A DNA stretch of 64,000 nt from a virus. The DNA lies in the IMG/VR virus record IMGVR_UViG_3300033571_011534, positions 1 to 64,000 of that record; one strand, given 5' to 3'. Below the pieces are notes generated by a model. It was not told the origin of the DNA and ran no database searches. It was given only the letters and a program-made list of their open reading frames with translations. The first letter of the stretch is position 1. The number at the start of each line of letters is the position of its first letter. A program made the translations under genes and the position numbers. Positions 8,119-61,968 of the stretch are shown in pieces.

Positions 8119-8991
8119 TTAGGATACCAGCCCTGTCCATCTACCCTGGTCGTCATACCTATATAGATGGGTAACATCTATCCATTGCTGTGTGGAAGAG
8201 TCATATCTTTTAATAAGCGTTACTGGGATAAATGCCCCTGAACTATCCCTTCTTTTTGCTCCAGGTAAGATATTTATAAAAAAGTCTCTCCTAGATGCTG
8301 GTGCAGTTGGGCCGACAGCCTCTACAGTTACGGACAATCCTTGTTTCGTTTCGTTAGGTGTTCCAGAAATTAATCCAGAGGGTGAGAGAGAAAGTCCGTT
8401 TGGAAGCTGGCCACCTACCACTGAATAAGACGTGGCATCGAGAGCTTCAAGCTGTATTGACACTGGAACATTGTTTCTTACACTTCCTAGCTCAGTGCCA
8501 GTTACCCAGCTTGGAGCTGGGATAAATGTTGGGAAAAACGGAAAAAACGGTGGAAAGAATGGTGGAAAGAATGGAGGAAAAAATGGTGGAAAGAATGGTG
8601 GGAAAAATGGCGGAAAGAATGGTGGCGCTGCAGCGGTTGTAAAATTAAATGATACGCTTGCATTTCCAACTACACCAGCACCAGTAAAGCTACCACTAAC
8701 ACTGTAAGTGGTAGATGGGCTGAGTCCTGTAACTGTTCCAGATACCGATCTTGGGAAAAATGGGTTAGATACGTTTCCAGATCCAAAGTCATAACTTCTA
8801 TTTGAGGCGTTTGCTACTTGAGTGCCTGCAACGGTAACTGTCCACCCCGCACCAGATGAGCCGAAACCAGAAAAGTTAGGATTATTATCTGTAACGGAAG
8901 CTGACCAGTTAACTGAAGTAGCTGTTATACCGCTAACGTCTACGGTTAATCTAGCTCTTCGTTCGGCATCGCTAGTATTAGAAAATGGCAC
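8119..8991 (-). CDS. Ig-like/FnIII surface protein with PPFFP repeat rod
   Basis: 290 residues. Residues ~14-120 look like one or two fibronectin/Ig-type domains (ITATSVNWSA, SVSGTVTGLSPSTTYSV). Residues 123-156 are an uninterrupted proline-phenylalanine tract, mainly PPFFP units. Residues ~185-215 carry a putative-Ig signature (LPNGLSLSPSGLISGTP). The C-terminus is a short tail (LYRYDDQGRWTGLV). The coding DNA of the tract is a ~15-bp minisatellite. The GTG start follows GGTAGGTG in the end of the upstream fibre gene. It lies at one edge of the dioxygenase block; a related tract lies at the other edge. Confidence 0.65.
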   Translation of the reverse strand: MPFSNTSDAERRARLTVDVSGITATSVNWSASVTDNNPNFSGFGSSGAGWTVTVAGTQVANASNRSYDFGSGNVSNPFFPRSVSGTVTGLSPSTTYSVSGSFTGAGVVGNASVSFNFTTAAAPPFFPPFFPPFFPPFFPPFFPPFFPPFFPFFPTFIPAPSWVTGTELGSVRNNVPVSIQLEALDATSYSVVGGQLPNGLSLSPSGLISGTPNETKQGLSVTVEAVGPTAPASRRDFFINILPGAKRRDSSGAFIPVTLIKRYDSSTQQWIDVTHLYRYDDQGRWTGLVS

Positions 8992-8999
8992 CTATGCAC

Positions 9000-9998
9000 C
9001 TACCAGATCCAGAGGTCACCGTTTGATGCATTTGACGGAGTCTCAGTTGACGGTTGCACAAAAATTCTCATTCCAGGCTCCCATTTAGCATCACCAGAAT
9101 CGTACATAAGAATTTGTCTATTTTGTGGCGAGGAGATATTTACATCAGAAAGACTTACTAAAGATCTTGGCGTAGTTCCCGCCTGCCAGGTTTGAGTTGA
9201 CGTGTTATAGATAAGGGAGTCTCCGTTTGCAACGGTTGTAATATTAACATCAGACAAATCATTAAGATTGGAAGCTGGTTTTCCTGGAACCCACTTCTGA
9301 GTTACAGAATCATAAACAATACTGTCGCCATTTTGAACAGAAATAAGGTTGACGTCTTGCATTTCTGACAAGTTATCAACACCTGGACCTGGAGGGCCTG
9401 CTGGACCTTGTGGCCCCTCATCACCAATTACGTTAAGATTTACTTTATACCAAAAAGTGGAAGAGTCATCTGGTTCGTGTCCAAGATTTGGGTCTACGGC
9501 AGAAAACCAAGAGAACCCATCATGGTAAACGGCATCATTAGCGGCATAGTCAACTGACTGACTCCAAACACCCCTCCATGTGATGTTAGTTGGTCCAGCT
9601 GCACCAGATTCACCTCTTGGCCCCTGAGCTCCCTGAAGACCAGTATTTCCTTGCTGACCTTTCGGAATTGAAAATGTTAGTGTTCTATTTGGATGTGTTC
9701 CACCTAAAATCACCTGAGCTGGTTGATCATGCTCAACTGTTTGAACAGCAGCAATCGATAAGTTAACGGCAAGAGAATTTAGCCACTGCTGCTCTGTGCC
9801 AACGAAACCATTTTCTACAGCAATGTCATAGGCGGTAGCCTGTGCATATGAAAGGTCTGACCACGTGTCAATTCCATTTCCAAGCTTAAACTTACCACTG
9901 TCTTGCTCTACACCAATTTCTCCTGGTGCTAGGATTGGGTTGCCGTCTTCCCATTCTTCGGAAAATCCTCGGCGTAGCTGAACTCTAACAAATGACAT
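9000..9998 (-). CDS. Collagen-like tail fibre
   Basis: 332 residues. The N-terminus (VRVQLRRGFSEEW, then LAPGEIGVEQDSGKFKLGNG) matches the major-tropism-determinant/fibre N-terminal domain that docks fibres to the virion. Two Gly-X-Y segments follow (near residues 115-138 and 190-205, e.g. GPQGPAGPPGPG), and three ~30-residue repeats of the form LSDVNI...NGDSLIYN...W. It is preceded by AAGGAGAG. It sits immediately downstream of the 2-oxoglutarate oxygenase cluster, which makes its X-Pro-Gly triplets plausible hydroxylation substrates (inference). Confidence 0.8.
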   Translation of the reverse strand: MSFVRVQLRRGFSEEWEDGNPILAPGEIGVEQDSGKFKLGNGIDTWSDLSYAQATAYDIAVENGFVGTEQQWLNSLAVNLSIAAVQTVEHDQPAQVILGGTHPNRTLTFSIPKGQQGNTGLQGAQGPRGESGAAGPTNITWRGVWSQSVDYAANDAVYHDGFSWFSAVDPNLGHEPDDSSTFWYKVNLNVIGDEGPQGPAGPPGPGVDNLSEMQDVNLISVQNGDSIVYDSVTQKWVPGKPASNLNDLSDVNITTVANGDSLIYNTSTQTWQAGTTPRSLVSLSDVNISSPQNRQILMYDSGDAKWEPGMRIFVQPSTETPSNASNGDLWIW

Positions 9999-10041: not shown

Positions 10042-10746
10042 TTAGTCTTTAACTAGGAATGCCGTGGCAATGTACTTTTCTTCTTTAATGACCTTGGTTG
10101 CCTCGTGAGAAAAGGGTTCTCCAGATGGGAAGACTACGACGCTTCCTGCAGATGGCTTAATGGTTACCCCCTGGTTGGGGAAGTGCAACTCTCCGCCATC
10201 ATAATTATCGTTTAAATAAAGAACTGCCGACAAGTAGGATTCCCCCTTGTAGGTGTCTACGTGCTGACCCTGCTCCGAGCCCACGTAATATTTACAAATC
10301 ATTATTGGAGACATCTTTGCTGGCCCCAACTCCAGGGTATTTGTATAGTGGTCAGTAGTAAAGGTTAATGCGTTCTTTATTTGCCCAAAAGCAAACTGGC
10401 CTTCTGAAGAGCTTGTAAGGTACTTTTTAGCATTTGTTGTTTTCACCTCTCCAAGAACATAGGCTGTCTGTGACTCAATTTCTCCTGATGGCAACAAGAC
10501 TTCACTGGTATGCTCCCAGGGATTCCACTGCTGAATAGCATCAGAATCTGTAGTATTAGGATCAGAGTTTTCTAGGGCAAGAATTACCTGGTCTGGGTGG
10601 TAGATAATATTTTCGTAATAGAAAATCTTTTCTGCATAGACCTTTGGCTCAAAATTTGTAGTTTTAATCCATAATGGCGAGAAAAATGGTGGATAAATTG
10701 ACACCTGGTCAACCAGGTACTTGTCAAGAGCTTTTTGATAGTCCAT
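10042..10746 (-). CDS. Fe(II)/2-oxoglutarate dioxygenase, P4H-like (cluster member 1)
   Basis: Double-stranded beta-helix oxygenase of the prolyl-4-hydroxylase alpha-subunit type, expected to couple 2-oxoglutarate decarboxylation to substrate hydroxylation. The metal triad is visible as H162-x-D164 and H214, with K224 as the 2-oxoglutarate anchor; the family core YLNDNYDGGELHFPNQ lies between. The first ~35 residues are extra and aromatic. It has its own promoter (TATAAT) and a GGAGG site, separating it from the upstream operon. It is the gene nearest the collagen-like fibre. Substrate unknown. Confidence 0.85.
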   Translation of the reverse strand: MDYQKALDKYLVDQVSIYPPFFSPLWIKTTNFEPKVYAEKIFYYENIIYHPDQVILALENSDPNTTDSDAIQQWNPWEHTSEVLLPSGEIESQTAYVLGEVKTTNAKKYLTSSSEGQFAFGQIKNALTFTTDHYTNTLELGPAKMSPIMICKYYVGSEQGQHVDTYKGESYLSAVLYLNDNYDGGELHFPNQGVTIKPSAGSVVVFPSGEPFSHEATKVIKEEKYIATAFLVKD

Positions 10747-10805
10747 ATATCCTCCAATAGAACAATTATTATTATACCAGATCTGCCATTACTGGTGAAT
10801 TAGGC

Positions 10806-11387
10806 TTACAGGGTATCCCAGTGGAAGAACTCTCTGTAGTCCTCAAGTCCAATCACGGTTGGGTCTACCCACCAGTCTTCGTGAATGGATCTGTGAACCA
10901 GAGAATACCCAAATGAGTCCAGGATTTCTCTTTGAGCGTCTCTTATTGTACTATTGCGCCAATACATATTGGCATCATGCTCAAAAGTAATTAACGTAAA
11001 CCTATATGTATTTAATGGCACGGCAACAAGACCCTGTAGCGTCCAGTGACTATTTCCAACTGGCCTTCCAGCAAAGTCATATCCAGCGTCAATATCTAGC
11101 TGCAGATAATCAATTTGCTTTGGAAAGTTATTTTTTTCAAAGTAATCGATATAGTTAAAAGATAGGGCGTCACCCATGCATGGGTTCTTTCTATTTGAGT
11201 TAAACTCATCCCTCATAGAATCTACAATTTCAAAAGACACACCTTTCCAGTCATATTCCTTTTCCAGCAAATAGGTGTTGTTTCCTTTGTCATAGTGAGC
11301 TGCCCCTAGCTCAACATAGTGGCCATTTCTCTTCTTTTTTAAAATCTCTATAATAAAGTGCTCTTGTTGCGTTATTTGATGTGTCAT
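10806..11387 (-). CDS. FkbM-like SAM-dependent methyltransferase
   Basis: 193 residues with the Rossmann methyltransferase motif I as GHYVELGAAHYDKGNNT, followed by a WKGVSFEI strand and DYLQLDID, the pattern of FkbM-type O-methyltransferases. The short length indicates a minimal catalytic domain. It overlaps the upstream oxygenase gene by 4 nt and ends a multi-gene operon of oxygenases plus a dehydrogenase. A role in methylating a sugar or hydroxylated residue is inferred from family and context only. Confidence 0.68.
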   Translation of the reverse strand: MTHQITQQEHFIIEILKKKRNGHYVELGAAHYDKGNNTYLLEKEYDWKGVSFEIVDSMRDEFNSNRKNPCMGDALSFNYIDYFEKNNFPKQIDYLQLDIDAGYDFAGRPVGNSHWTLQGLVAVPLNTYRFTLITFEHDANMYWRNSTIRDAQREILDSFGYSLVHRSIHEDWWVDPTVIGLEDYREFFHWDTL

Positions 11388-11962
11388 TTAAACAAATCTC
11401 CTCTTAATTTTGTTGGTTCCTCATATGTTCCTCGTACGAAGACAGTTGAAAAGTATCTTATTTTATCATTTAAAACTGGTTTTGAGCCATGCAAAATGTG
11501 TCCGCCATGTATGTACAAAGAGTTTGCCTTTGGCTTGACGGTTATTCCAAGCTCTGGGTATTCCAACTCCCCTCCCTCATAGTCATCGTTATAATATAGA
11601 CAAAATCCATATCCAATATAATATGGCAAATCTGGGTTCCACTGATCGGTATGTGGTTTTATGAAGTCACCCATCTTATATCTTTGCAAAAGAAGATTTG
11701 ATGGGTAGTAGTGATAAGACTCAAAAAGCGATTCCATTTTTTTATTAATATCTGAAAATACTGTCTTTGTTTTGAATTCTAAATTTTTACCATACCAAAA
11801 ATCTGCAAAATCTTCGCCTTTTGCCGTGTCTTCAGAAAACCAATCTTTTTCGCTAAGGCTATTTATAATATTAAAAACTTCGCCAAACTCCTCTTCAGAA
11901 AGAAAATTATTAATTTCATAGACACCCTCGTGCAACTTTACAATTTCCATATCATCACACAT
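11384..11962 (-). CDS. Fe(II)/2-oxoglutarate dioxygenase (cluster member 2)
   Basis: 192-residue P4H-like oxygenase. Triad H104-x-D106 and H158; R169 is the likely 2-oxoglutarate anchor (KIRYFSTVFV). The core YYNDDYEGGELEYP is intact. It overlaps the upstream dehydrogenase gene by 8 nt, so translation is probably coupled. Compact and without added domains; substrate unknown. Confidence 0.85.
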   Translation of the reverse strand: MCDDMEIVKLHEGVYEINNFLSEEEFGEVFNIINSLSEKDWFSEDTAKGEDFADFWYGKNLEFKTKTVFSDINKKMESLFESYHYYPSNLLLQRYKMGDFIKPHTDQWNPDLPYYIGYGFCLYYNDDYEGGELEYPELGITVKPKANSLYIHGGHILHGSKPVLNDKIRYFSTVFVRGTYEEPTKLRGDLFK

Positions 11963-12623
11963 ACTTACTATTAAAGATATTGCTAATTTCTAGATGGTTT
12001 ACATTAAAGTGTTTTGGCAAAGAGGAAATCCATCTAATGGCCTCTGCCACATCCTCTGCGGTCAAAGCGTTGTCTTTTTTCTCAATTTGGGTATCTATTG
12101 TTCCTGGGCAGATTTCTGTAACCTTAATGCCGTACTGGGGAAATTCCATTCTCATTGTGTCAACAAGAGCCATCATCCCCCTTTTCGCATTAGTGTAATT
12201 TCCGCCACCCCGAAAAGGAACCTTTCCAGAAAGAGATGATACAAAAACAATTGACGGAGACTCTGACCTTTGTAAACACGGCACGAATAGCTGAGAAAGA
12301 TACATTGGTCCAGAAACGTTTATGTCATATGCCATTCTAAAATTATCCATTGTTTCATTAATAATGCTGGTTGGGCTTGCTCCTCCGCCTGCATTATTTA
12401 CCAGCAAATCTAGAGAAATATCCTTGTACTTGTCAAAGAAGCCTTTTATCTGATCTTTTTGTGTAATGTCTAGTCGATAAAGTTCTAGGTTATCAGAACT
12501 TATTTTAGATAATTCGGACAGGTTTCTTGATACAGCTATTACCCTATACCCAGAATTTAGCAAAAGCTTTACAGTGGCATAGCCGACGCCCTTGCTAGAC
12601 CCAGTCACGATTGCCGTTTTCAT
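11955..12623 (-). CDS. Short-chain dehydrogenase/reductase
   Basis: NAD(P)-dependent oxidoreductase of the classical SDR family, 222 residues. The cofactor motif TGSSKGVGYA lies at residues ~6-16, NNAGGG near 90, the catalytic Ser in FVSSLSGK near 138, and YTNAK (Tyr-x-x-x-Lys) near 150. All catalytic residues are present, so it should be active. It is embedded between two dioxygenase genes with short overlaps. It may oxidise or reduce a hydroxyl on the same substrate pathway (inference). Confidence 0.85.
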   Translation of the reverse strand: MKTAIVTGSSKGVGYATVKLLLNSGYRVIAVSRNLSELSKISSDNLELYRLDITQKDQIKGFFDKYKDISLDLLVNNAGGGASPTSIINETMDNFRMAYDINVSGPMYLSQLFVPCLQRSESPSIVFVSSLSGKVPFRGGGNYTNAKRGMMALVDTMRMEFPQYGIKVTEICPGTIDTQIEKKDNALTAEDVAEAIRWISSLPKHFNVNHLEISNIFNSKYV

Positions 12624-13474
12624 TATCCCAAAGATTCTATTTCTTTTTCATAATAAGACTCAAAGTCTTGCCAAAACGGGACGCCATTAATTATGTCAAT
12701 GTTGTCGCTATTTCTATTATATCTAAGCCTTTCGTCTTCCATCTGCTTCCAGATGTCCTCTCCATACTTTTCTTGCAACCTTTTCCAAAGTGGGTGGCCA
12801 GGGTAGTCGTATCTCCAGTATGTTCTAATAATATACTTTTCTCCCTCAGAGACTATTTTGACTCCATGATAATGTGGGTGGCCAGAATTAAAAATAACTA
12901 AATCTCCAGCCTGGGGCTTATAGTTATATTCTTCTTTAATTACAGAAACATCGTCATTGTCTAAGAATCTAAATAAAACATCTCCACCAGAATAATTATC
13001 GTTTAGATAGAAAACTGCGGTTACGGCAAATTTATGTCCAGGATTATAGGCAAATTCTCTTTGATAGTCTGTGTGGAAGGCCATTGCATAGTCGCCACCA
13101 TTGATTTCATTTTGCCTTGGTTCATATTTTGCAATATTCCATCCACTAAATATCCAGTTATCGATAGATACATTATTTGCCTCGACGTACTCTTTTGTTG
13201 CATTGTAAAATACGTCATTTATTTCACTTTCAAATGGACCGCATGCCCCAAAGTCGTGGTCATAGATATTTTTTGCTTCTTCCCACTGTTCTGGTGTTGG
13301 AAAACTATCAAACCTAGTTGTAAAATGTGTACCCTCTGCATGCTTTCCAAAAATATACCAGTCTTTCCATTCCACCTTTTTGTCAAGATAGTCCAACGTA
13401 GCTTCTGGACTCTTTAATGCGTTTTTAAAGACCCAGACTGTGTTGTGGATTTTCTGAATATCAAAATTAGACAC
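12623..13474 (-). CDS. Fe(II)/2-oxoglutarate dioxygenase (cluster member 3)
   Basis: 283 residues, the longest oxygenase here. H134-x-D136, H203 and K213 form the expected metal and co-substrate sites; a 16-residue insertion lies between the GGDVLF strand and the KPQAGD strand. The ~70-residue C-terminal extension is charged and Trp/Tyr rich, absent from shorter relatives. It overlaps the genes on both sides. Substrate unknown. Confidence 0.83.
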   Translation of the reverse strand: MSNFDIQKIHNTVWVFKNALKSPEATLDYLDKKVEWKDWYIFGKHAEGTHFTTRFDSFPTPEQWEEAKNIYDHDFGACGPFESEINDVFYNATKEYVEANNVSIDNWIFSGWNIAKYEPRQNEINGGDYAMAFHTDYQREFAYNPGHKFAVTAVFYLNDNYSGGDVLFRFLDNDDVSVIKEEYNYKPQAGDLVIFNSGHPHYHGVKIVSEGEKYIIRTYWRYDYPGHPLWKRLQEKYGEDIWKQMEDERLRYNRNSDNIDIINGVPFWQDFESYYEKEIESLG

Positions 13475-14168
13475 TGCAGCCTCCGTGTAGGTTCATATCA
13501 TTATGAATCCAGTGGCTTGGGACCATATACTTTACCCCAGACTTTACTGTGTGGGCAATGTGATAGTACGGAGCGGATGATGGGAATATGATAATACTTC
13601 CAGCACTTGGCTTAACGCCAAAATCGATTTCGTTATTCTCAACAGCAACAGAGTAATCCAAATCTGGGCTAACAACCTTGCTGTGGTCCTCGTAATCAGA
13701 AAGCTTAAAGGATATTTCTCCGCCATCACAGTCATCATTCAAATACATTACCAAAGAGTACCTGAGGGTTTTGTCTCCATCTAGCTGGTCATAGTGTGCC
13801 CCCATTGCAGCGCCAGTATTGTATTTTTTAATATTAAAGACTGGGAATAGCCTTGGCTCATCGCTATCGCCAACTGCTGCGGCATAGTCTTTACAAACGT
13901 TGTACAGCGACTTCATGATGTTGATGTAAATAAATTCAGACTTACTTCTGTATGGCTCTTCCATATGCTTAATCTGATTAAGATCAAACGACTGAGTCTC
14001 TCCATATATAAAAGTCTTGTCGTTTGAAGCTGTCCAGTCTTGCCATAGCGGCTTTCCAGCGGATGCTCCGATTTCGTCTAGTTCCCTAATGGCGTCCATA
14101 ACCTCTTTAAAGTTTTCGACGGCATCCTCGTAGTAGTAAACCTTTTCGTGTAATACCTGCTTTTTCAT
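13467..14168 (-). CDS. Fe(II)/2-oxoglutarate dioxygenase (cluster member 4)
   Basis: P4H-like oxygenase with H125-x-D127, distal H203 and K213 (numbered from the chosen start). It has an insertion of ~25 residues between the GGEISF strand and VKPSAGS. I chose the ATG that directly follows the upstream stop codon (TAATATG) with AGG 8 nt before it; a TTG ten codons earlier would overlap the neighbour by 29 nt. Part of a tightly packed operon. Confidence 0.83.
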   Translation of the reverse strand: MKKQVLHEKVYYYEDAVENFKEVMDAIRELDEIGASAGKPLWQDWTASNDKTFIYGETQSFDLNQIKHMEEPYRSKSEFIYINIMKSLYNVCKDYAAAVGDSDEPRLFPVFNIKKYNTGAAMGAHYDQLDGDKTLRYSLVMYLNDDCDGGEISFKLSDYEDHSKVVSPDLDYSVAVENNEIDFGVKPSAGSIIIFPSSAPYYHIAHTVKSGVKYMVPSHWIHNDMNLHGGCSV

Positions 14169-14169
14169 A

Positions 14170-14829
14170 TTAGTACCTATTCCTTTGATAATGTCCAACT
14201 TCTTTTATAAAGCCCACAAGGACATATCTGATTGGGCCTTCTGAAACAAATTCTACTCCATGCTCATACTTTTCATTGCCTGGAAAAATCAACAAGCACT
14301 TTGGCTTTGGCCTTAGCTTTAAGCCTAAATTTTTAAAAAGTAACTCTCCATCTTTATAGTCATCATTGATATATGTAATAGCTGCATACCTAATAGATGG
14401 GTCTGTGTGCTGATCAGTATGAGACTTTAGCTCAACCCCTGGTTGCATTCTTTGAATTGTTGCAAGCCCACTGAGCTCTAGAGAGCTATCTGCCTCTCTG
14501 ACCATGGAAGCAAGCCTTTCATAAAAAACCCTATATTCTGGATATTTACTTATATTAAGATTTTTGTCTGTCCAGTTTTGAGTGATCTCGAACTTGCCCT
14601 CAGCCACAAGGTTATCTACGTCATCTCTTCCAAACTTTTCTATGCAAAAATTTTTTAAATTTGACATGTACTCAATTTCCCAGTCAGGTTGAGATGCCTC
14701 GTTAATTCTGTCTTGCAGAAAGCTTAAGTCTTCGTCTGTTAGGAAATTGTCAATAGATAGTAGCTCATCAGTTAGCTCTTCAAACGCAATGCCCCTATCT
14801 TTTAAAACTTCCTTTAACGACTCAATCAT
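14170..14829 (-). CDS. Fe(II)/2-oxoglutarate dioxygenase (cluster member 5)
   Basis: 219-residue P4H-like oxygenase: H137-x-D139, H190, R201. Its N-terminal ~110 residues (FLTDED, GK-FEIT--W-DKNL) are clearly shared with the separate plus-strand oxygenase at 51.6 kb, so the two are paralogues with the same extended architecture. Only 1 nt separates it from the upstream gene. Confidence 0.84.
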   Translation of the reverse strand: MIESLKEVLKDRGIAFEELTDELLSIDNFLTDEDLSFLQDRINEASQPDWEIEYMSNLKNFCIEKFGRDDVDNLVAEGKFEITQNWTDKNLNISKYPEYRVFYERLASMVREADSSLELSGLATIQRMQPGVELKSHTDQHTDPSIRYAAITYINDDYKDGELLFKNLGLKLRPKPKCLLIFPGNEKYEHGVEFVSEGPIRYVLVGFIKEVGHYQRNRY

Positions 14830-14830
14830 C

Positions 14831-15577
14831 TTACAGGTCTTCTACCTTATACTTGTTTCCATTTATGTCTATCTTGTAGCCTTCTTTTAGCAGATCTTGC
14901 CACTCTTTTCTTTCTAGCTCTTGACCGTCTCTAATCTTCTTCATTTCTTCCGCCCAGGCGTCTCTCAGCTCTTGAGGGTATGCGTCTTCTTCACGATCAT
15001 CCCAAAAAGATCCGATTGTGTATCTAACGCCTGACTCAATTAGGGTAACCTCGTGCATATTATTAAATCCGCCATCAAATGCCGCAAGCATTCCAACCTT
15101 TGGCTTAATCTCTATATCTTGTGATGGGAACTTTAGAAGACCTCCCCCAAAGTCATCATTTAAGTAAAGAAACGCAGCATATCGGCTTCTAGTAAATGGT
15201 CCAGAGTTGCCATGCTCATCTGTATTGTCGGAGTGGACTCTTGCATATGCTCCTGGCTCCCACTTTTGTGTATGGTATCCGATCTGAACGACTGTTTTTG
15301 GATCTAGGTCGTGTACGGATGCAACTGCCTCAATAATGCCCTGCTTAATTTTTGAAAAAATGTCAGAGTCAAGACCCTCATCTAGGATCTCTTGATCGCC
15401 ATCCTGCGGTAAAACAGAGGAATAGGACTCGTAAAAAGATATTGGCATCCACGTAATTTTTCCAGTTTCTGCAACCTTATCTAGGACTTTTATGATTTTT
15501 TGAGATTCTTCTGGGGTTAAAAAGTTCTCATAAAGGACTATATCCTTAGTAATCCTGTTTTTGTTATTTAAATTCAT
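14831..15577 (-). CDS. Fe(II)/2-oxoglutarate dioxygenase (cluster member 6)
   Basis: 248 residues; H115-x-D117 in VHSDNTDEHG, H175, R185. It is closely related to the next gene upstream (shared HSDNTDE-G motif and RYTI-SFW end), indicating tandem duplication. A charged ~60-residue C-terminal tail follows the catalytic core. It starts an operon: a TATAAT box and AAAGGAG precede the ATG. Confidence 0.84.
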   Translation of the reverse strand: MNLNNKNRITKDIVLYENFLTPEESQKIIKVLDKVAETGKITWMPISFYESYSSVLPQDGDQEILDEGLDSDIFSKIKQGIIEAVASVHDLDPKTVVQIGYHTQKWEPGAYARVHSDNTDEHGNSGPFTRSRYAAFLYLNDDFGGGLLKFPSQDIEIKPKVGMLAAFDGGFNNMHEVTLIESGVRYTIGSFWDDREEDAYPQELRDAWAEEMKKIRDGQELERKEWQDLLKEGYKIDINGNKYKVEDL

Positions 15578-15629
15578 TGCAAGGCACTCCTTTTAAATAT
15601 ATTATAGCAGATAGTAAAAGTGGCCAGCA

Positions 15630-16355
15630 TTAAGCAAAGTTCCAGAGCGACCACTTAGATCTCCAGGAACTGTCCCATTCTTCATACCAGGACTTAGACC
15701 AATCTTCCATTTTTTGACTTCTCCAGGCTTCTCTTTCTTCAGAATACTTGGAATCAGAAAAGTCCCAGAATGAAATTATTGTATATCTGAGTCCAGACGT
15801 GATTTCCCTTACTCCGTGGATGTTTTCCTTTCCTCCAGGAAAAAGAACTAGCGACCCAGCCTTTGGCCTAACGTCCATTTCGTGCTCAGGAAAAAACACC
15901 TCTCCACCAGAATACTGATCATTTAGATAAATAATCGCTGCGTACTTATTTATTTCAAAATGGTTAGAGTCTCCATTTTCATCTGTATTGTCGGAGTGGA
16001 CATGACCAAGACCTCCAGTTTGAAATTTTTGGGCATGAATAGTGTTAAGGGAAACGTCCTTAGAGAAAAAGAAAGATACGTGATTATTTATTTTTTCAAC
16101 AATGTCATATACAGTAGATTTAGAAAGATTAAACAATTCAAGATCTACGTCTGGCTCTGGGAAGTGTCCTAGTCGATATTTATAAGAAGCAACATGCCCC
16201 CAATTTTCTGGTTTGCTTTCTATATACTTAATTATGTTTTTGCAAGCCTCATCGTCTAAAAAATCCAGAACTTCTATTATTTTATTTTGACTGATTCCAG
16301 GAGTTCCATTATTATTCAAAGAGTCTAAATGGACAACAATTTTGGGGTCCATCAT
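15630..16355 (-). CDS. Fe(II)/2-oxoglutarate dioxygenase (cluster member 7)
   Basis: 241 residues; H120-x-D122, H180, R190, with core YLNDQYSGGEVFFP. Paralogue of member 6. The last ~35 residues are strikingly Trp-rich (WYEEWDSSWRSKWSLW), which could bind sugar or an aromatic partner. Two adjacent ATGs are possible starts; no clear Shine-Dalgarno sequence is visible. Confidence 0.83.
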   Translation of the reverse strand: MMDPKIVVHLDSLNNNGTPGISQNKIIEVLDFLDDEACKNIIKYIESKPENWGHVASYKYRLGHFPEPDVDLELFNLSKSTVYDIVEKINNHVSFFFSKDVSLNTIHAQKFQTGGLGHVHSDNTDENGDSNHFEINKYAAIIYLNDQYSGGEVFFPEHEMDVRPKAGSLVLFPGGKENIHGVREITSGLRYTIISFWDFSDSKYSEEREAWRSQKMEDWSKSWYEEWDSSWRSKWSLWNFA

Positions 16356-16360
16356 TTTTA

Positions 16361-17035
16361 TTACTCAGAAGTTTTTTCTTTATGAGACAGGATTGTCCAA
16401 AAGAACGGTACTGTATACCTGATACCAGAGATAATTTCTGAAACTCCATGAATGTAGTTCATGTCTCCAGGGAAGAAGTAAGCAGCGCCCCTCTTAGGCT
16501 TAAATTGAATGTTCTGGTTTGGAAAGTACAACTCGCCACCTTCATAATCATCGTTAATGTAGAAAAGGCCAGCAATGTCGTAATATGGGAAATCATTTGG
16601 CTTACCAGCGTCTGGTCCTGTGTGAAGCTCTTTGTCTGCGTGTGGCATCTGTAGCTGCCCTGGAAGCCATCTAACCATTGCTGGGCTAGTTGGGAGGGCG
16701 TCTACGCCAAAGAACTTATCTACCTCTATCTTCAATCTTGCAACCATTCCCTCAATAATTTCTGGAATTTCTTGATTTGTTTTATAGATAGTTGGATAGG
16801 TCGCTACACGATTAGCCCAGTATCCAGCATCATAAATAACGGTTCCGTTTTCGTTGTGATGAGTTTCTGTTTGGTCCCAGTTTTCATTACTTCTAATAAA
16901 GTCATTTAGAGCAGTCAGCTCTTCTTCGGTCATAAAATTTTCTAGGGCAACAATGTTTTCTGGAGATGAACCAAAAAATCCAGATGGCGTAATTGAAACC
17001 CGATCAACAATGTGATTGTTAGTTAAGTCGTCCAT
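16361..17035 (-). CDS. Fe(II)/2-oxoglutarate dioxygenase (cluster member 8)
   Basis: 224 residues; H132-x-D134, H196, R206. The core YINDDYEGGELYFPNQ and end IRYTVPFFW are intact. AAGGAGAG precedes the start. It has a slightly longer loop after the HxD motif (DAGKPNDFPYYD), also seen in P4H enzymes that bind extended peptides. Confidence 0.84.
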   Translation of the reverse strand: MDDLTNNHIVDRVSITPSGFFGSSPENIVALENFMTEEELTALNDFIRSNENWDQTETHHNENGTVIYDAGYWANRVATYPTIYKTNQEIPEIIEGMVARLKIEVDKFFGVDALPTSPAMVRWLPGQLQMPHADKELHTGPDAGKPNDFPYYDIAGLFYINDDYEGGELYFPNQNIQFKPKRGAAYFFPGDMNYIHGVSEIISGIRYTVPFFWTILSHKEKTSE

Positions 17036-17049
17036 TATAACTCTCCTTC

Positions 17050-17775
17050 TTAGTCATACTTTCGTCTTTCCCAAACCTCTTTTAAGTATACACCACCGTT
17101 GGGCACCCGATATTTCTTCGAGTTTTCCATGTTCTTTTTCATAATAGAAAGGCCAGAATCAAGCTCGTACTCAGACTCCCAGTCCTCTCGTTTAAATGGT
17201 ATCATTTGAGAATATGGTGTTCCAGCTGGAATAACCCCAGTCCAGCCTTCTTGTATAAAAAATGGAAAAGTTCCTGGAAGGTGTACCTTATCATTGTCGA
17301 TGATACCGCTTGTTGTATGAAATGGCAAGTCATATCTTCCAAAAGGCTGGGCATACAAGACGCTGTACCCCTTTGGAGTAGCTACGGCCCAGTCTGGGTA
17401 CCAGGCAAAATGCTTTTTATAGTATCCTCGTGGATGCTCAAACTGCGGCATAGGATCTCGAAACTGAATAAAATCAGAGTATTTAGGGTCTAATACTTTA
17501 GCTGAAATTTCATTTTTGCTATCAAGAAAAAACTCGATATCGCAAGGAGTTCTATATACGTAACCAGTAATAAAAATATCATATATGGCTGGGCAGGCTT
17601 TCCAGGTTGGAATCTTACCACCATCCATTCCAATGATGCTTTCTCCATTTTGTCCCTTGTAGAATCTGTCAGCAGAGGTATACCATTCTGGCAAACTTTT
17701 TGATACTGGCTCTGGAGCTGATGAGTCTTTTTCGGACAACCACCCTCTATTAGCTAAAAATTTAATTTTTGGCAT
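17050..17775 (-). CDS. Conserved phage protein, possible DUF6065-like (A)
   Basis: 241 residues, no recognised catalytic motif. It begins like several phage proteins that follow the pattern KFLA...PKSLPEWY, followed by a CPAIYD segment and an Asp/Trp-rich centre. The C-terminal part contains GVIPAGTPYSQMIPF, which recurs in the next upstream gene as ITIPANTPIASVLPI, so the two are distant paralogues, perhaps of a cupin-like beta fold. It is embedded in the dioxygenase operon and overlaps its neighbour by 14 nt. The DUF6065 suggestion is from memory of the family pattern only. Confidence 0.5.
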   Translation of the reverse strand: MPKIKFLANRGWLSEKDSSAPEPVSKSLPEWYTSADRFYKGQNGESIIGMDGGKIPTWKACPAIYDIFITGYVYRTPCDIEFFLDSKNEISAKVLDPKYSDFIQFRDPMPQFEHPRGYYKKHFAWYPDWAVATPKGYSVLYAQPFGRYDLPFHTTSGIIDNDKVHLPGTFPFFIQEGWTGVIPAGTPYSQMIPFKREDWESEYELDSGLSIMKKNMENSKKYRVPNGGVYLKEVWERRKYD

Positions 17776-18481
17776 AATTGGTGACCTTCATGATAATCTT
17801 TTTGGATTCGTGATGGCCGATAGGGACTCCGTTGTGGTCTACAGCATCTCGATAAAAATGAGTCCATTCCCCTTTAGAGTTCTTTTCCTGACTTGCAACT
17901 CCACGATCTCTCATTCTTTCCTGCCATTGAAGGTCCTCGTATTCTGGCCTTCCATTACGAACCTCTAGTTCGTGTTCCTGAATATCAGAAAGGGATATTG
18001 GCAAGACAGAAGCTATTGGAGTGTTTGCTGGTATTGTTATTTCAATATTTGGCTCTGTAATCATCCAAGCAATCGGAAGGTCACCAGCCAAAACAGAAGT
18101 ACTTATTAGGGTTGTCATACACTGAGCTCCTCTAATAAACTGATTCGGCACAGGCATTGTCAAAAGACTTAGATTTTCATTGTTTTCTTTTACAAATGTA
18201 ATGTCTGTGTAAAAGCTAACAGTTCTGTTTCCACGATTTGGATGAGCATAATTTGAACCAGAAAGAATTTTTACGTGCTCTCCTCTTGAATCATTTATTC
18301 CATCCCAAATAAACGTAATATCTTCTGGGTACGAAATGCCCCACCCAAGTCTATTTGACAAAGAAACAGGAAAGCACTGATAGGCATGTCTATCAAAAGT
18401 AATATCCATCCAGTCACGGTGTAGCGGTAGCTGATCTATATTAGCGTGATGACCAGAAGTGTAGGCTGTTACCTTGGGCAT
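17762..18481 (-). CDS. Conserved phage protein, possible DUF6065-like (B)
   Basis: 239 residues. It contains CFPVSLSNRLGWGISYP and FIWDG near residues 35-60, then a beta-rich half and IPANTPIASVLP near 150. Its start overlaps the upstream oxygenase stop (TGATG). Relationship to the adjacent gene is visible at the PAGTP/PANTP motif and overall length. Function unknown; co-transcription with oxygenases suggests the same pathway. Confidence 0.5.
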   Translation of the reverse strand: MPKVTAYTSGHHANIDQLPLHRDWMDITFDRHAYQCFPVSLSNRLGWGISYPEDITFIWDGINDSRGEHVKILSGSNYAHPNRGNRTVSFYTDITFVKENNENLSLLTMPVPNQFIRGAQCMTTLISTSVLAGDLPIAWMITEPNIEITIPANTPIASVLPISLSDIQEHELEVRNGRPEYEDLQWQERMRDRGVASQEKNSKGEWTHFYRDAVDHNGVPIGHHESKKIIMKVTNYAKN

Positions 18482-19185
18482 CAGGAACCTGTCTCTTGGT
18501 AGAACTTTGGATTGTGATATTTATCTGAGTAATCCAGCATTGTCACAATAGAATGCTTTATTCCAGACTCTACTGGCAACGATTTGTGAGGATACATGTA
18601 GTTAGATGGGAAGATGAAAAGATCTCCTGCCCTTGGCTTTACCTTTAGCCCCTGTAGTCTAAATTCTAGCTCTCCACCAGTATAGTCATCATTTGGATAG
18701 GCAACAAGCGAAACAACACAGTTATAGGAGTAACCGTTGTCAGAATGCTCTTGGAAGTGTTGTCCTGGACCATATTTTACAAAGTTCATTGCTTCCCAGT
18801 AGCGGAGCTCTCCGACGTTGAATCGTCTTGAGTAATCTTTTACTGCTGCGATTTCTCTATCATAAACATCTTGCCACAACTGCTGAAGCTTTTGAGATGC
18901 TGGAGATTGGTCATGCATAATATCTGTTTTCTTGTACTTAAAATCCCAGCAGTCACGGTATTCTGGCATCTTGGTACCGTAGCCCACCATAGCTTCCATG
19001 TAGTTGTAGTAGTTTGTATTATCGTCCAAAACCTCTTCGAGTCTATTTATGATATCCATATCTGTAGGAAGGACATCGTGGTATACGAATATGCCAGGAG
19101 ATAGCTCCTCTACAGAAGACCAAGTCTGCTCTTCGATCTGATAGTATTCCTGAATTCTTCTGCTTAAATCTTCAACTTTTTCCAT
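18481..19185 (-). CDS. Fe(II)/2-oxoglutarate dioxygenase (cluster member 9)
   Basis: 234 residues; H147-x-D149, H200, K210 (IKHSIV). It has a GELRYWEAMNFVKYGPGQHF lead-in shared with the next gene, so this is a second tandem-duplicate pair. A weak GGTGA lies before the ATG. Core NDDYTGGELEF intact. Confidence 0.83.
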   Translation of the reverse strand: MEKVEDLSRRIQEYYQIEEQTWSSVEELSPGIFVYHDVLPTDMDIINRLEEVLDDNTNYYNYMEAMVGYGTKMPEYRDCWDFKYKKTDIMHDQSPASQKLQQLWQDVYDREIAAVKDYSRRFNVGELRYWEAMNFVKYGPGQHFQEHSDNGYSYNCVVSLVAYPNDDYTGGELEFRLQGLKVKPRAGDLFIFPSNYMYPHKSLPVESGIKHSIVTMLDYSDKYHNPKFYQETGS

Positions 19186-19195
19186 TTTTCACCAA

Positions 19196-19951
19196 TCAGT
19201 ATGTTATCTTTGTCGAGTCCTCTTGCCTATATGGGAAATATCTTAGATTTCCACGATCATTGTAGTCTGTCATAACAACCACAGAGTACTTTGTACCGCT
19301 TTTCATTGGCAATGAGGCGTGTTCATATATATATGTAGATGGGAAAACAGCAATATCTCCAGGCTTTGGCTTAATAGTTAAATCAAACCTTGGGAAGTAA
19401 AGCTCTCCACCCTCATAATCATCGTTTAGGTATGCAACAACAGAGACTGTAGTCACATATGCGGGACCATGGTCTGCATGAATATTAAAATGCTTCCCCT
19501 CTCCCTCATACTTTACAAAATTAAATGCTTCGTAGTATGATATTCCTACTCCCCAATAGTGTCCATAATCCTGGACATTTGGGTGAATAGCCTGAAATGC
19601 CTTTTCGTGCATATCATATAGTTCTGAGTTTTCTGGATTTCTTGGGCCGTAGGAAGTACTATTAATTTTAAAGTCTACACAATCTCTTGCATCTGATAAA
19701 ACAGCATCAGACTCTGTTACCATGGCTCCGTGCCACTTATAGACATCACTTGTGCTATTCGTAAGCTTTGACTCTAGGGTATTTATAATGCTCTTACAGT
19801 CGTTAAAAGAAATAGCATTATTGTAAATATTAATTCCAAGTGCTGGATTTGATACTAAAATACCGCCACCTGTTGTTCTGTCTGGCATTCTGTTGCTATA
19901 AGTTTCGGATCTATCTTTAGTTAGCCAAGGATTTTCATATTGTTGTTCCAT
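19196..19951 (-). CDS. Fe(II)/2-oxoglutarate dioxygenase (cluster member 10)
   Basis: 251 residues; H158-x-D160, H211, K221. First gene of the oxygenase block: a TATAAT box ends 6 nt before the ATG with no ribosome-binding site, so the transcript appears leaderless. Closest relative is member 9 (shared RDC-DFK and NFVKY motifs). The N-terminal ~35 residues are extra. Confidence 0.83.
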   Translation of the reverse strand: MEQQYENPWLTKDRSETYSNRMPDRTTGGGILVSNPALGINIYNNAISFNDCKSIINTLESKLTNSTSDVYKWHGAMVTESDAVLSDARDCVDFKINSTSYGPRNPENSELYDMHEKAFQAIHPNVQDYGHYWGVGISYYEAFNFVKYEGEGKHFNIHADHGPAYVTTVSVVAYLNDDYEGGELYFPRFDLTIKPKPGDIAVFPSTYIYEHASLPMKSGTKYSVVVMTDYNDRGNLRYFPYRQEDSTKITY

Positions 19952-20030: not shown

Positions 20031-20843
20031 CTAGCAGCGGGGTGGACATCCACCAAACCTTGGGAAGAATGGACCGAATCTAGGGAAGAATGGCGGGAAG
20101 AATGGTGGGAAGAATGGGAAGAACGGTGGGAAGAACGGCGGGAAGAACGGTGGGAAGAATGGTGGGAAGAATGGGAACCATGGTGGGAAAAATGGTGGGA
20201 AGAACGGGAACCATGGTGGGAAGAATGGGGGGAAGAACGGTGGAGTAGTAGTAATGTCTCCAGAATATGGAGACCACTCTCCTAGGCCATTTGCATTTTG
20301 AGCACGTACACGATATGCCTGAGTAGTAGAACCCTCTTGAGCAACGGTAACAGAAGTGCTTGTAGTGGACCCACTCTTGCTATCTGTACTTTCCCAAGAA
20401 TAAGAAGTAATAGTACTTCCTCCGTTATTTGGGATATTCCAGCTTACAATATCCTCATTAACTTGTGGGCTAGCTGAAGGAGCATTAGGCGCTGCTGGAA
20501 CTGTGGTTGCTGTAACACTTACAGATGAAGATGGCTGAGAAGTTCCAGCATTATTAGATGCAGTTACTGTAACAGAGTAGCTAACATTAGAGGCAAGACC
20601 CTCTACGGAAATTGGAGAAGAAGATCCTGTGCCAGTTCTAGTGGTCTGGCCAGATGCTGTAGCAGTTACAGTATAAGAGTTGGCAGCTGGAGAATCATCT
20701 GGCAAAGAGAACGACACAGTTGCTGCGCCGTTATTAAAAGCTCTTGATGTCCCTACGTTTTGTGCTGATACATTGATCGGAGCCTTAGGCTCTAAAAAGT
20801 CATTCTGCTGTGACGACCTTCCGCCAACTTCTTTCTTTGCCAT
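20031..20843 (-). CDS. Tandem FnIII protein with C-terminal PPFFP/PPWFP rod
   Basis: 270 residues. Two fibronectin type III-like domains (residues ~20-112 and ~114-200; VSFSLPDDSPAANSYTVTA, SYSVTVTASNNAGTS, VSWNIPNNGGSTITSYSW). From residue 201 to the end it is almost only Pro, Phe and Trp in PPFFP and PPWFPFF units, ending RFGPFFPRFGGCPPRC. The two terminal cysteines could cross-link chains. The repeat DNA is a ~15-bp minisatellite. AAGGAGA precedes the ATG. Likely an external virion or adsorption protein; it brackets the oxygenase block with its relative at 8.1-9.0 kb. Confidence 0.68.
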   Translation of the reverse strand: MAKKEVGGRSSQQNDFLEPKAPINVSAQNVGTSRAFNNGAATVSFSLPDDSPAANSYTVTATASGQTTRTGTGSSSPISVEGLASNVSYSVTVTASNNAGTSQPSSSVSVTATTVPAAPNAPSASPQVNEDIVSWNIPNNGGSTITSYSWESTDSKSGSTTSTSVTVAQEGSTTQAYRVRAQNANGLGEWSPYSGDITTTPPFFPPFFPPWFPFFPPFFPPWFPFFPPFFPPFFPPFFPPFFPFFPPFFPPFFPRFGPFFPRFGGCPPRC

Positions 20844-34480: not shown

Positions 34481-35119
34481 ATGTCGGTTCAGGTTATTGA
34501 TAGCTACATTTCGGATTACGATGCAAGGATGATCATCGATGGATTTTCTCCGCACCTGGTAGCCAGCGGCCGAATTGGTATGGCTGAGGCTCAGTACGCA
34601 GATCCAGTTAAGGCGATTAACAACATTTACGAAGGTAAGCCGATTATTGACAATGAGGAGTCACTTGAGGCTGCAGCACTTTTTACAGAAACTGTTAACA
34701 AGATCGCAAAAGAGATCAGCGAATTTTACAACGTAGAGGCAGTGCCTGCAAGCTCGATTTTTGCAGAGGTTTCTCAAGGCGGTAAAAATGGACTTCACTG
34801 CGATAGTGTCATGATAGACGGCACTCCGTGGCCAGATAATGACGATACACTGGATGGTCTTGAGTTTTCGGCATTATTGTATTTAAATACTTCGGGGGTA
34901 GATTACGAAGGCGGTCAAATCGTATTTCCAAATCAAAAGATCACGATAACGCCAGAAGTCGGTAAATTGATTTTCTTTCGGGGCGATATTGATCACCCAC
35001 ATGAAGTTTCCGAAGTAACCGCAGGCACAAGATATGCATTAGTTTTGTTTTATGGCTCCGCTGATAAAGTAAAGCAATATCAGAGATTTAAGTCAAAGCT
35101 CAATTTCGGCGGTATATAG
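34481..35119 (+). CDS. Fe(II)/2-oxoglutarate dioxygenase (stand-alone)
   Basis: 212 residues: H106-x-D108, H174 and R184, core YLNTSGVDYEGGQIVFPNQ. It differs from the cluster enzymes by a ~12-residue insertion after the HxD motif, and stands alone, divergent from the structural genes. Codon choice looks slightly more GC-rich than its neighbours (impression only). Substrate unknown. Confidence 0.85.
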   Translation: MSVQVIDSYISDYDARMIIDGFSPHLVASGRIGMAEAQYADPVKAINNIYEGKPIIDNEESLEAAALFTETVNKIAKEISEFYNVEAVPASSIFAEVSQGGKNGLHCDSVMIDGTPWPDNDDTLDGLEFSALLYLNTSGVDYEGGQIVFPNQKITITPEVGKLIFFRGDIDHPHEVSEVTAGTRYALVLFYGSADKVKQYQRFKSKLNFGGI

Positions 35120-47568: not shown

Positions 47569-48150
47569 TTATTTGATACCGTCGGAGTTTAGGCTATCCC
47601 TAATCTTATGAGCTTCATCAAAGATAGGATCGTCCTGGAGATATCTCATGTGCGAATAGTCTAGGTCTTCATCTATAAACCTAAAGAAAGCCATGGTTAT
47701 AAACTCTCCCTCTTTGAAGGTCTTATGTGGTCTCCAATGAGGATACTCATTTGGGTTAAATATGATAGCTTCGTTGTCTTCCATCTCAAAGACTTCCTTG
47801 TCTACCGCCAGACCCCATGTCGTATTGGACTTGTATTGGTAGTCAATAATTAATCCATTATTGTCCCCATCAAAGTGTGGTGGGAGATTTGGCTGTCCAT
47901 ATTTTGCATCATAGTCGACAAACATAACTCCTATTTGTGGAAGCTTCCTGCCAACAAGTTTTTCGACTCTCTCTTGAATACCCTCTAAAGTGGGCATCGG
48001 CAGTCTTGCCACATACATGAGTCTTCCAAGGACTGGGTCGTGTTTCTTTTCTGATCTATACATCCACTCATCCTCATCAGTAAGGATGTGCTCGATTACT
48101 TCTAGCTCTTCTGGGAGGAGAAAGTTTTTGACCCTGTACACATTGTCCAT
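47569..48150 (-). CDS. Divergent Fe(II)/2-oxoglutarate dioxygenase-like protein
   Basis: 193 residues. H92-x-D94 (PPHFDGD) and distal H138 (YPHWRPH) are present, but at the usual Arg/Lys anchor for 2-oxoglutarate there is E149 (GEFITMAFF), and the core YLNDDYxGGE is replaced by NTTWGLAVDKEVFEM. Either a nearby basic residue substitutes or the enzyme uses another co-substrate. End of a five-gene leftward operon. Confidence 0.65.
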   Translation of the reverse strand: MDNVYRVKNFLLPEELEVIEHILTDEDEWMYRSEKKHDPVLGRLMYVARLPMPTLEGIQERVEKLVGRKLPQIGVMFVDYDAKYGQPNLPPHFDGDNNGLIIDYQYKSNTTWGLAVDKEVFEMEDNEAIIFNPNEYPHWRPHKTFKEGEFITMAFFRFIDEDLDYSHMRYLQDDPIFDEAHKIRDSLNSDGIK

Positions 48151-51584: not shown

Positions 51585-51610
51585 TTGCCCCAGTCGTGTA
51601 TAATATAACC

Positions 51611-52279
51611 ATGAGGCACGAACTACAAAACCTGACTAAACAGAATTTTATTGATTTTGGATACTCGGTAGAAGAAATAGATACCGAAATATTTTTAATT
51701 AAAGACTTTTTGACAGATGAAGAAGCTAAAGCGTTTTTAGATATAGCAAACTCTGCTAGTGAGGATGAATGGTCTGTTTCTTATATAGAGGGGCTAAAGT
51801 CTTTCGCTAGAGCAAAGTTTGGATACGACGACTTAGATGAACTGGTTGCCAGCGGCAAGCTTGAGATTACCGATAGATGGAGAGACAAGAACCTTACTTT
51901 ACACGACAAGAGTCTTCTTGACCCAATAAACGAAAGACTTTCAAGGGTTATAAAGCATATTCCTGAGCTTTTGTATAATGGTATCGATGCTATACAGAGG
52001 CAGTATGAAGGCGCAGATCTTGTGGTCCATGTTGATAATCAAACAGACCCCTCCCTTGTTTATGCCGCAATTATCTATCTAAATGACGACTATACAGATG
52101 GTGAGCTTATATTTCCAGAGCGTGGCATTGAAGTAAAGCCACCAGCAAAGACTTTGGCGATATTCCCCACTCACGAAGAATATCTTCATGGAACTAACGC
52201 TCCTGGGCCTGGTCCCGTAAGGTATGTCTTGCCCTCGTTTATTGGCGTAAAAGGCTTTTACGAGAACAATAAATACTAA
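51611..52279 (+). CDS. Fe(II)/2-oxoglutarate dioxygenase (stand-alone, paralogue of member 5)
   Basis: 222 residues: H140-x-D142, H193, R204; core YLNDDYTDGELIFP. Shares the ~110-residue N-terminal domain with the enzyme at 14.2-14.8 kb. Start set at the ATG 6 nt after TATAAT (leaderless); an upstream GTG would precede that box. Confidence 0.83.
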   Translation: MRHELQNLTKQNFIDFGYSVEEIDTEIFLIKDFLTDEEAKAFLDIANSASEDEWSVSYIEGLKSFARAKFGYDDLDELVASGKLEITDRWRDKNLTLHDKSLLDPINERLSRVIKHIPELLYNGIDAIQRQYEGADLVVHVDNQTDPSLVYAAIIYLNDDYTDGELIFPERGIEVKPPAKTLAIFPTHEEYLHGTNAPGPGPVRYVLPSFIGVKGFYENNKY

Positions 52280-61677: not shown

Positions 61678-61968
61678 TTATTTGCCCTTATCCATTGTTA
61701 AAACTTCCCAGGTTTTGGCCCAGTCTTTTTTATTTCTATGACGATTAAACTCTTTTGAAATTTTTCCAGATTCTAGATACACTCCACCCCAGACACCCCA
61801 TTCTTTTTGAGAGATGCCAACAGCAAAGCACTGCCTCACAACTGGACAGCCAGAGCAAAGCTGATCTATTGCTGGACGTAAGAGTTCATCTTCTTCGTAT
61901 GTATCAAAAAATAAATTAGTATCATAATCACGACAAGAGGAATCATCTTTCCACTTGCCACTATCCAT
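61678..61968 (-). CDS. WhiB-family Fe-S transcriptional regulator
   Basis: 96 residues. The four-Cys cluster site is SCRDYD plus CSGCPVVRQC (C-x2-C-x5-C), and GVWGGVYLE is the Wbl G[I/V]WGG signature. Wbl proteins bind a [4Fe-4S] cluster and the host principal sigma factor, altering promoter choice; they are restricted to actinobacteria and their phages, which fixes the host phylum. Could regulate the phage's own promoter family. Confidence 0.88.
   Translation of the reverse strand: MDSGKWKDDSSCRDYDTNLFFDTYEEDELLRPAIDQLCSGCPVVRQCFAVGISQKEWGVWGGVYLESGKISKEFNRHRNKKDWAKTWEVLTMDKGK

Follow-up and report, generated by a model that had tools for sequence, protein, structure and literature searches.

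Why should a single phage carry ten Fe(II)/2-oxoglutarate (2OG) oxygenase genes side by side? The question is raised by a 64,000-nucleotide stretch of viral DNA (hereafter, the window), positions 1 to 64,000 of the 75.7 kb IMG/VR record IMGVR_UViG_3300033571_011534. Positions 10042-19951 hold ten minus-strand genes for prolyl 4-hydroxylase (P4H)-like enzymes, which we label ox1 to ox10, and on either side of this block lies a gene for a protein with proline/phenylalanine repeats, here called a PFF protein. We consider it likely that the block is a virion-protein modification cassette and that the substrate of several of its P4H-like enzymes is the (FFPP)n arms that the phage itself makes. In the literature that we searched, a PFF-oxygenase cassette has not been reported.

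All ten genes exceed the curated Pfam cut-off for the Fe(II)/2OG oxygenase family PF13640: ox10 (19196-19951, 3.4e-12), ox9 (18481-19185, 3e-13), ox8 (16361-17035, 2.5e-6), ox7 (15630-16355, 3.5e-11), ox6 (14831-15577, 3.4e-8), ox5 (14170-14829, 1.1e-8), ox4 (13467-14198, 3.6e-10), ox3 (12623-13474, 1.5e-12), ox2 (11384-11962, 2.2e-6) and ox1 (10042-10746, 7e-14). An earlier, sequence-only reading had counted ten such enzymes and credited nine or ten of them with an intact H-x-D...H...R/K site; in our alignment the HxD motif, the distal His and the Lys/Arg are intact in 10/10, and an alignment of 50 ox9 and ox10 rows shows no variation at HxD, the distal His or the 2OG-binding Lys. Every gene is intact and pairwise identity within the block is 24-43%, so these are old paralogues and not a recent tandem expansion. 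Other phages have counterparts of ox6 that are 78-85% identical to it across the 80 best loci. For the six enzymes whose orthologues allowed a measurement (ox4-6 and ox8-10), the nonsynonymous rate dN is 0.11-0.16 against a synonymous rate dS of 1.4-3.3, with a dN/dS of ~0.05-0.1, many of the dS values being saturated; these enzymes are under strong purifying selection. Because the paralogues are diverged and intact, dN/dS is low and the gene order is kept in many other phages, a chance origin of the block is excluded.

A profile built from ox9 and ox10 is nearest to the P4H of B. anthracis, LH3 and the P4H of the algal virus PBCV-1, and matches others as well. Of the ten oxygenases ox9 alone was modelled (AlphaFold2, pLDDT 93.9). 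Its predicted structure is closest to 3gze, an algal P4H with bound (Ser-Pro)5 (Z 19.4, root-mean-square deviation 2.1 over 173 residues, 22% identity); complexes of PHD2 with HIF peptides match at Z ~18 and the PBCV-1 enzyme is recovered at Z 16.4. The modelled fold is thus nearest to peptide-binding prolyl hydroxylases, a likeness that does not in itself prove function.

As transcription runs, the gene for the protein that we propose as the main substrate precedes ox10. PFF protein 1 (20031-20843, minus strand) has an fn3 domain (PF00041, 5.8e-9), a (PPFF/PFF)n repeat at residues 201-261 and a Cys-containing tail; PFF protein 2, at the other end (8119-8991, minus strand), has (PPFF)n at residues 123-154 followed by an Ig-like He_PIG domain (PF05345, 5.6e-10). 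Among 208 distinct relatives the repeat consists of 48% F, 45% P and 3% Y and has a median length of ~58 residues. Its codons vary synonymously and the pattern is restricted to the PFF-coding strand (a control pattern gave zero hits), from which we conclude that the repeat is selected as protein. The Phe codons of the PFF1 repeat are 28 TTC versus 1 TTT, compared with 57 TTC versus 141 TTT in background genes; PFF2 has no such bias.

After the repeat, ~50/236 C-terminally complete relatives carry a bacterial intein-like (Hint/BIL) domain (for example L242:5602-6096, L079:8587-9081 and L357:1444-1959). Fifty-two such tails form one similarity cluster and are matched by PDB 2lwy (E 2.9e-10) and by Pfam intein/Hint models. 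Many have an N-terminal Cys and a C-terminal HN and some lack one or the other; the latter copies may be inactive. The domain may release or cross-link the F/P arm. Cys-rich tails occur in other relatives, with at least four Cys in 49/154 tails shorter than 120 residues. The stretch between the genes for PFF protein 1 and ox10 has a hairpin that resembles a terminator (20015-19982) and, seven bases before the ox10 ATG, an extended -10 element, TGATATAAT, at 19966-19958. Together these suggest that the enzyme operon may have a transcript of its own, distinct from that of the PFF gene and perhaps leaderless.

Does the oxygenase block follow the PFF gene in other phages? We assembled a forward set of 36 IMG/VR records picked solely for a relative of the window's portal, blind to oxygenases and repeats, and scored PFF by the pattern PP[FYHL]FPP. 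The pattern is present in six of the 36, and these hold 10, 9, 9, 10, 8 and 6 PF13640 genes; of the 30 others, 26 have none and four have one or two. Three or more oxygenases are therefore found in 6/6 records with PFF versus 0/30 without (Fisher p 5e-7), and on 80 portal loci in 6/7 versus 0/73 (p 2e-8). In the reverse direction, 46 records were found purely by a DNA pattern for PFFPPFFP: 44 of them carry PF13640 genes, 36 with four or more copies. Likewise, of 36 ox6 loci with at least 6 kb of upstream sequence, 31 have a PFF gene under a strict filter and a further three have PFF repeats on reading. The remaining two have metabolic-looking genes inserted directly upstream of the oxygenase block (IMP dehydrogenase-like, PLP-enzyme-like and radical-SAM-like, by eye; L352:1-5450 and L361:1-5446), and the L361 record carries a PFF gene elsewhere.

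Other genes of the region show no such association. On the same 80 loci the Mtd_N/stem fibre homologues gave p 0.18 and a large neighbouring gene p 1, so hitchhiking within a generic fibre region is not supported by these controls. Collagen-like genes, of which the window has three, gave 0/4 versus 6/76 (p 1), and on this test we rejected them as the oxygenases' partner. The one that adjoins the block, an Mtd_N fibre with a short collagen-like stretch (9000-9998, minus strand; PF18454 6.8e-9, Collagen 4e-4), is probably a neighbour and not a specific partner. The sequence-only reading had placed this gene and both PFF genes (its PPFFP genes) correctly and had proposed that the block modifies the phage's own fibres. 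Of that proposal the PFF part is now the best-supported reading, and the collagen part is not supported. As a refuting find it had named the same block in relatives that have no Pro-rich fibre gene; multi-oxygenase blocks instead follow the PFF gene, and the proposal was not refuted.

The pairing extends to gene order. Relatives share a constant core, PFF - ox10 - ox9 - two DUF6065-type genes - ox8, with a variant in which one DUF-type gene lies between ox10 and ox9; a variable series follows, drawn from ox6/5/4/3, a short-chain dehydrogenase/reductase (SDR), ox2 and an FkbM-like gene. Of the 157 PFF genes followed by at least 5 kb of sequence, 143 are accompanied within 6 kb, on their own strand, by an oxygenase as well as a DUF6065-type gene; several of the 14 others are a second PFF gene that closes the block at its far end. 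The median distance from the PFF stop to the first oxygenase start is 88 bp (96 cases). The pairing holds with oxygenases at most ~45% identical to those of the window (L135, L156), and the cassette also accompanies portals of only ~50% identity and occurs in records that lack any related portal. Counting well-supported branches, PFF was gained or lost at least 5 times in a 61-row portal tree (8 times in the best tree), and multi-oxygenase presence follows it in 4.9/5 independent pairs on average, never the opposite.

The two remaining core genes were described in the sequence-only reading as related proteins without assignment. One (17762-18481, minus strand) is a DUF6065 protein (PF19541 1e-23, 84.5 bits against a cut-off of 26.6). 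Its partner (17050-17775, minus strand) belongs with phrog_7084 (5e-33) and is unmatched by the PF19541 profile; the relatedness of the two is weak (E 0.003). The model of the DUF6065 protein (pLDDT 87.7) has a dUTPase-like beta-clip fold, with dUTPases at Z ~10; despite the similar fold, the dUTPase family profile gave no match at E 0.05. A role as scaffold or in holding the peptide is guesswork.

From these observations we infer a substrate, a modified residue, a virion location and a purpose. The same PFF-oxygenase pairing recurs in hundreds of related viral contigs, so that the protein decorated by the enzymes is probably one of the phage itself. The phage would make fn3/Ig-type proteins with hydrophobic (FFPP/FFP)n arms and, encoded beside them, diverged P4H-like oxygenases and two DUF6065-type beta-clip proteins, with the SDR and a possible methyltransferase as accessories. 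During infection, ahead of virion assembly or in the course of it, oxygenases with different site preferences would hydroxylate the arms at several positions. Prolines are the most likely targets, and the beta-carbons of Phe, Tyr or His are possible further ones; the SDR and the methyltransferase-like protein might then oxidise or O-methylate the new hydroxyls, which is a guess. An unmodified (FFPP)n chain is expected to be very insoluble on general chemical grounds, and hydroxylation would for this reason explain how such a repeat is tolerated: it would turn an insoluble Pro/Phe polymer into a tail arm that is soluble, stiff and adhesive. A bolder version, which we hold to be possible though doubtful, is an undescribed phage modification pathway in which a dozen paralogous oxygenases and DUF6065 proteins, joined in some phages by an autoprocessing intein-like domain, build a heavily oxidised Pro/Phe polymer (hydroxylated, perhaps dihydroxylated, O-methylated or cross-linked), a new class of adhesive or fibre material.

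Several points weigh against modification of the PFF arms. The case is built from genomics and prediction, and members of the P4H fold also act on free amino acids, Lys, Asn/Asp and small molecules. Being physically linked, the PFF and oxygenase genes travel together as a unit, and their co-occurrence is for this reason not independent proof of an enzyme-substrate relation; the functional cassette is shown more firmly than that relation. With the independent pairs at hand, the sign test could go no lower than p 0.0625. Oxygenases are absent from two PFF records (G043 and G081, both fragments) and there is just one in some PFF phages, from which it follows that ten enzymes are not required; oxygenase count correlates weakly with repeat length (rho 0.24). 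DUF6065-type genes are also present without PFF or oxygenases (L265, L267, L287), and the roles given to the SDR and the methyltransferase-like protein are guesses.

What else could the enzymes be doing? The sequence-only reading had offered host surface glycans as an alternative substrate. In its fuller form the oxygenases, the SDR and the methyltransferase-like protein act on such glycans, on envelope lipids or on a small metabolite, for receptor masking, superinfection exclusion or nucleotide-sugar tailoring, and the proximity to PFF reflects a shared host-interaction module. An SDR and an FkbM methyltransferase are typical sugar-tailoring partners, the module sits in the fibre region, and open reading frames at 53-55 kb look glycosyltransferase-like by eye. 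The SDR (11955-12623, minus strand) is clear, as the sequence-only reading had it (adh_short, PF00106, 2.3e-40), whereas its FkbM-like methyltransferase (10806-11387, minus strand) stays tentative: 7/23 homologues match Methyltransf_21 (PF05050) below the cut-off, with a best E of 0.0094, the window's own copy is unmatched, and a PDB match was looked for and not found. However, the association is specific to PFF among the fibre genes, the PFF-ox10-ox9-DUF-ox8 core is kept in other phages without SDR or FkbM, and the fold is nearest to peptide hydroxylases. We regard this alternative as the less likely one, with a small probability.

Alternatively, PFF and the oxygenases might merely share an exchanged host-range island, with the enzymes modifying other phage proteins or working independently. 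Physical linkage and joint gain and loss fit this, as do the varying copy number and the scarcity of oxygenases in some PFF records. A fixed, tight order with the first oxygenase ~88 bp after PFF does not, nor does a pairing that is maintained with such divergent oxygenases and on unrelated portals, and we give this possibility rather little weight.

For cyanophages, 2OG oxygenases have been proposed to be auxiliary metabolic genes that deplete 2-oxoglutarate or change the nitrogen metabolism of the host (PMC3037559, PMC9602691); such a role is very unlikely here. Nothing in it would lead one to expect ten paralogues that resemble peptide hydroxylases, are diverged yet each conserved, and go with a single structural gene. 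Moreover, the close cellular homologues expected of an auxiliary metabolic gene were not seen for ox6: no relative was confirmed in 84,980 prokaryote genomes, prophages included, in a search sensitive to close relatives only. Hydroxylation of prolines in collagen-like (Gly-X-Y) fibres, as in animal collagen, is the least probable of all, because despite the P4H/LH3 similarity and the collagen-like genes in the window such genes show no oxygenase association in relatives and most relatives' cassettes have none adjoining them.

Elsewhere in the window the sequence-only reading had seen three more copies. Two exceed the PF13640 cut-off: ox11 (34481-35119, plus strand, 4e-12), which adjoins the cassette in relatives, and ox13 (51596-52279, plus strand, 1.2e-6), a paralogue of ox5 at 43% identity. 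The third, ox12 (47569-48150, minus strand), is a weak 2OG-oxygenase-like protein with a match to phrog_2954 (1.1e-6) alone and no Pfam match in the profile search. Four PHROG families that match these oxygenases (phrog_274, phrog_2297, phrog_3531 and phrog_2954) are named DNA endonuclease (V) or ferrochelatase; the names are probably misannotations, liable to mislead automatic annotation. A defence-system role was rejected, the sole match being a generic CRISPR-associated "2OG" model.

The phage probably infects an actinobacterium, since it encodes WhiB (61780-61953) and its portal is ~48% identical to those of Streptomyces BE-type siphophages. The record also encodes a full-length KatG catalase-peroxidase (record positions 68872-71067); at 55-59% identity to enzymes from many phyla it is uninformative, and we rejected it as a guide to the host.

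If modification of the PFF arms is borne out, a large class of phage 2OG oxygenases would shift from host metabolism to virion modification, and the cassettes would provide a set of natural hydroxylases that probably differ in site preference and would reveal an unusual protein material. The proposal names a specific candidate substrate, the Pro/Phe repeat protein encoded beside the enzymes, and comes with a genomic test by which it can be told apart from collagen-like fibres.

How does the cassette compare with known systems? Among 50,697 GenBank phages we found no such cassette and no close relatives of ox9, ox3 or the DUF6065 protein, the best matches being ~30% identical and in cyanophages. 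The sequence-only reading's premise that phages often carry one or a few such genes is out of date: the T4-like cyanophage S-SCSM1 has 24 2OG-Fe(II) oxygenase open reading frames (PMC9602691) and resembles our phage in holding many low-identity PF13640 paralogues. At S-SCSM1 210680-219702 (L444:15681-24703), four and three 2OG oxygenase genes flank the short tail fibre SSCSM1_245, which has R/Q/P/F-rich, RQPR-type low-complexity repeats, possibly a second oxygenase-repeat-fibre pairing. It differs in that the stretch of fibre read has no PFF repeats, the enzymes are <35% identical, and cyanophage 2OG oxygenases have so far been interpreted as host-metabolism genes (PMC9602691, PMC3037559). RQPR-type repeats were not seen in the related fibre hits of CRP-361, S-SCSM2R and S-B05; in P-SSM2, collagen-like repeats lie beside PiuC. 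With S-SCSM1 fitting and those three not, extension of the pairing to cyanophages is only suggestive.

The closest solved fold (3gze) leads to Chlamydomonas P4H-1 and the plant P4Hs of hydroxyproline-rich cell-wall proteins, which act on extended Pro-rich peptides; they are eukaryotic secretory enzymes that recognise Ser-Pro/Pro-Pro and not FFPP. The Mimivirus collagen lysyl hydroxylase/glycosyltransferase (6ax6; PMC9546862, PMC5802723), a weak profile match, is a viral 2OG enzyme working on viral structural repeats, its target being Lys of Gly-X-Y collagens. The nearest precedent for viral prolyl hydroxylation, and the one known, is the PBCV-1 P4H (Eriksson 1999, cited in PMC9301287; structure 5c5t), an enzyme of the P4H fold whose proposed substrates are Pro-rich proteins of the virus itself; viral use of P4H is described in PMC9301287 as cryptic. 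PBCV-1, a eukaryotic algal virus, has one enzyme, whereas here a phage has at least ten paralogues, together with Phe/Pro polymers and DUF6065-type proteins.

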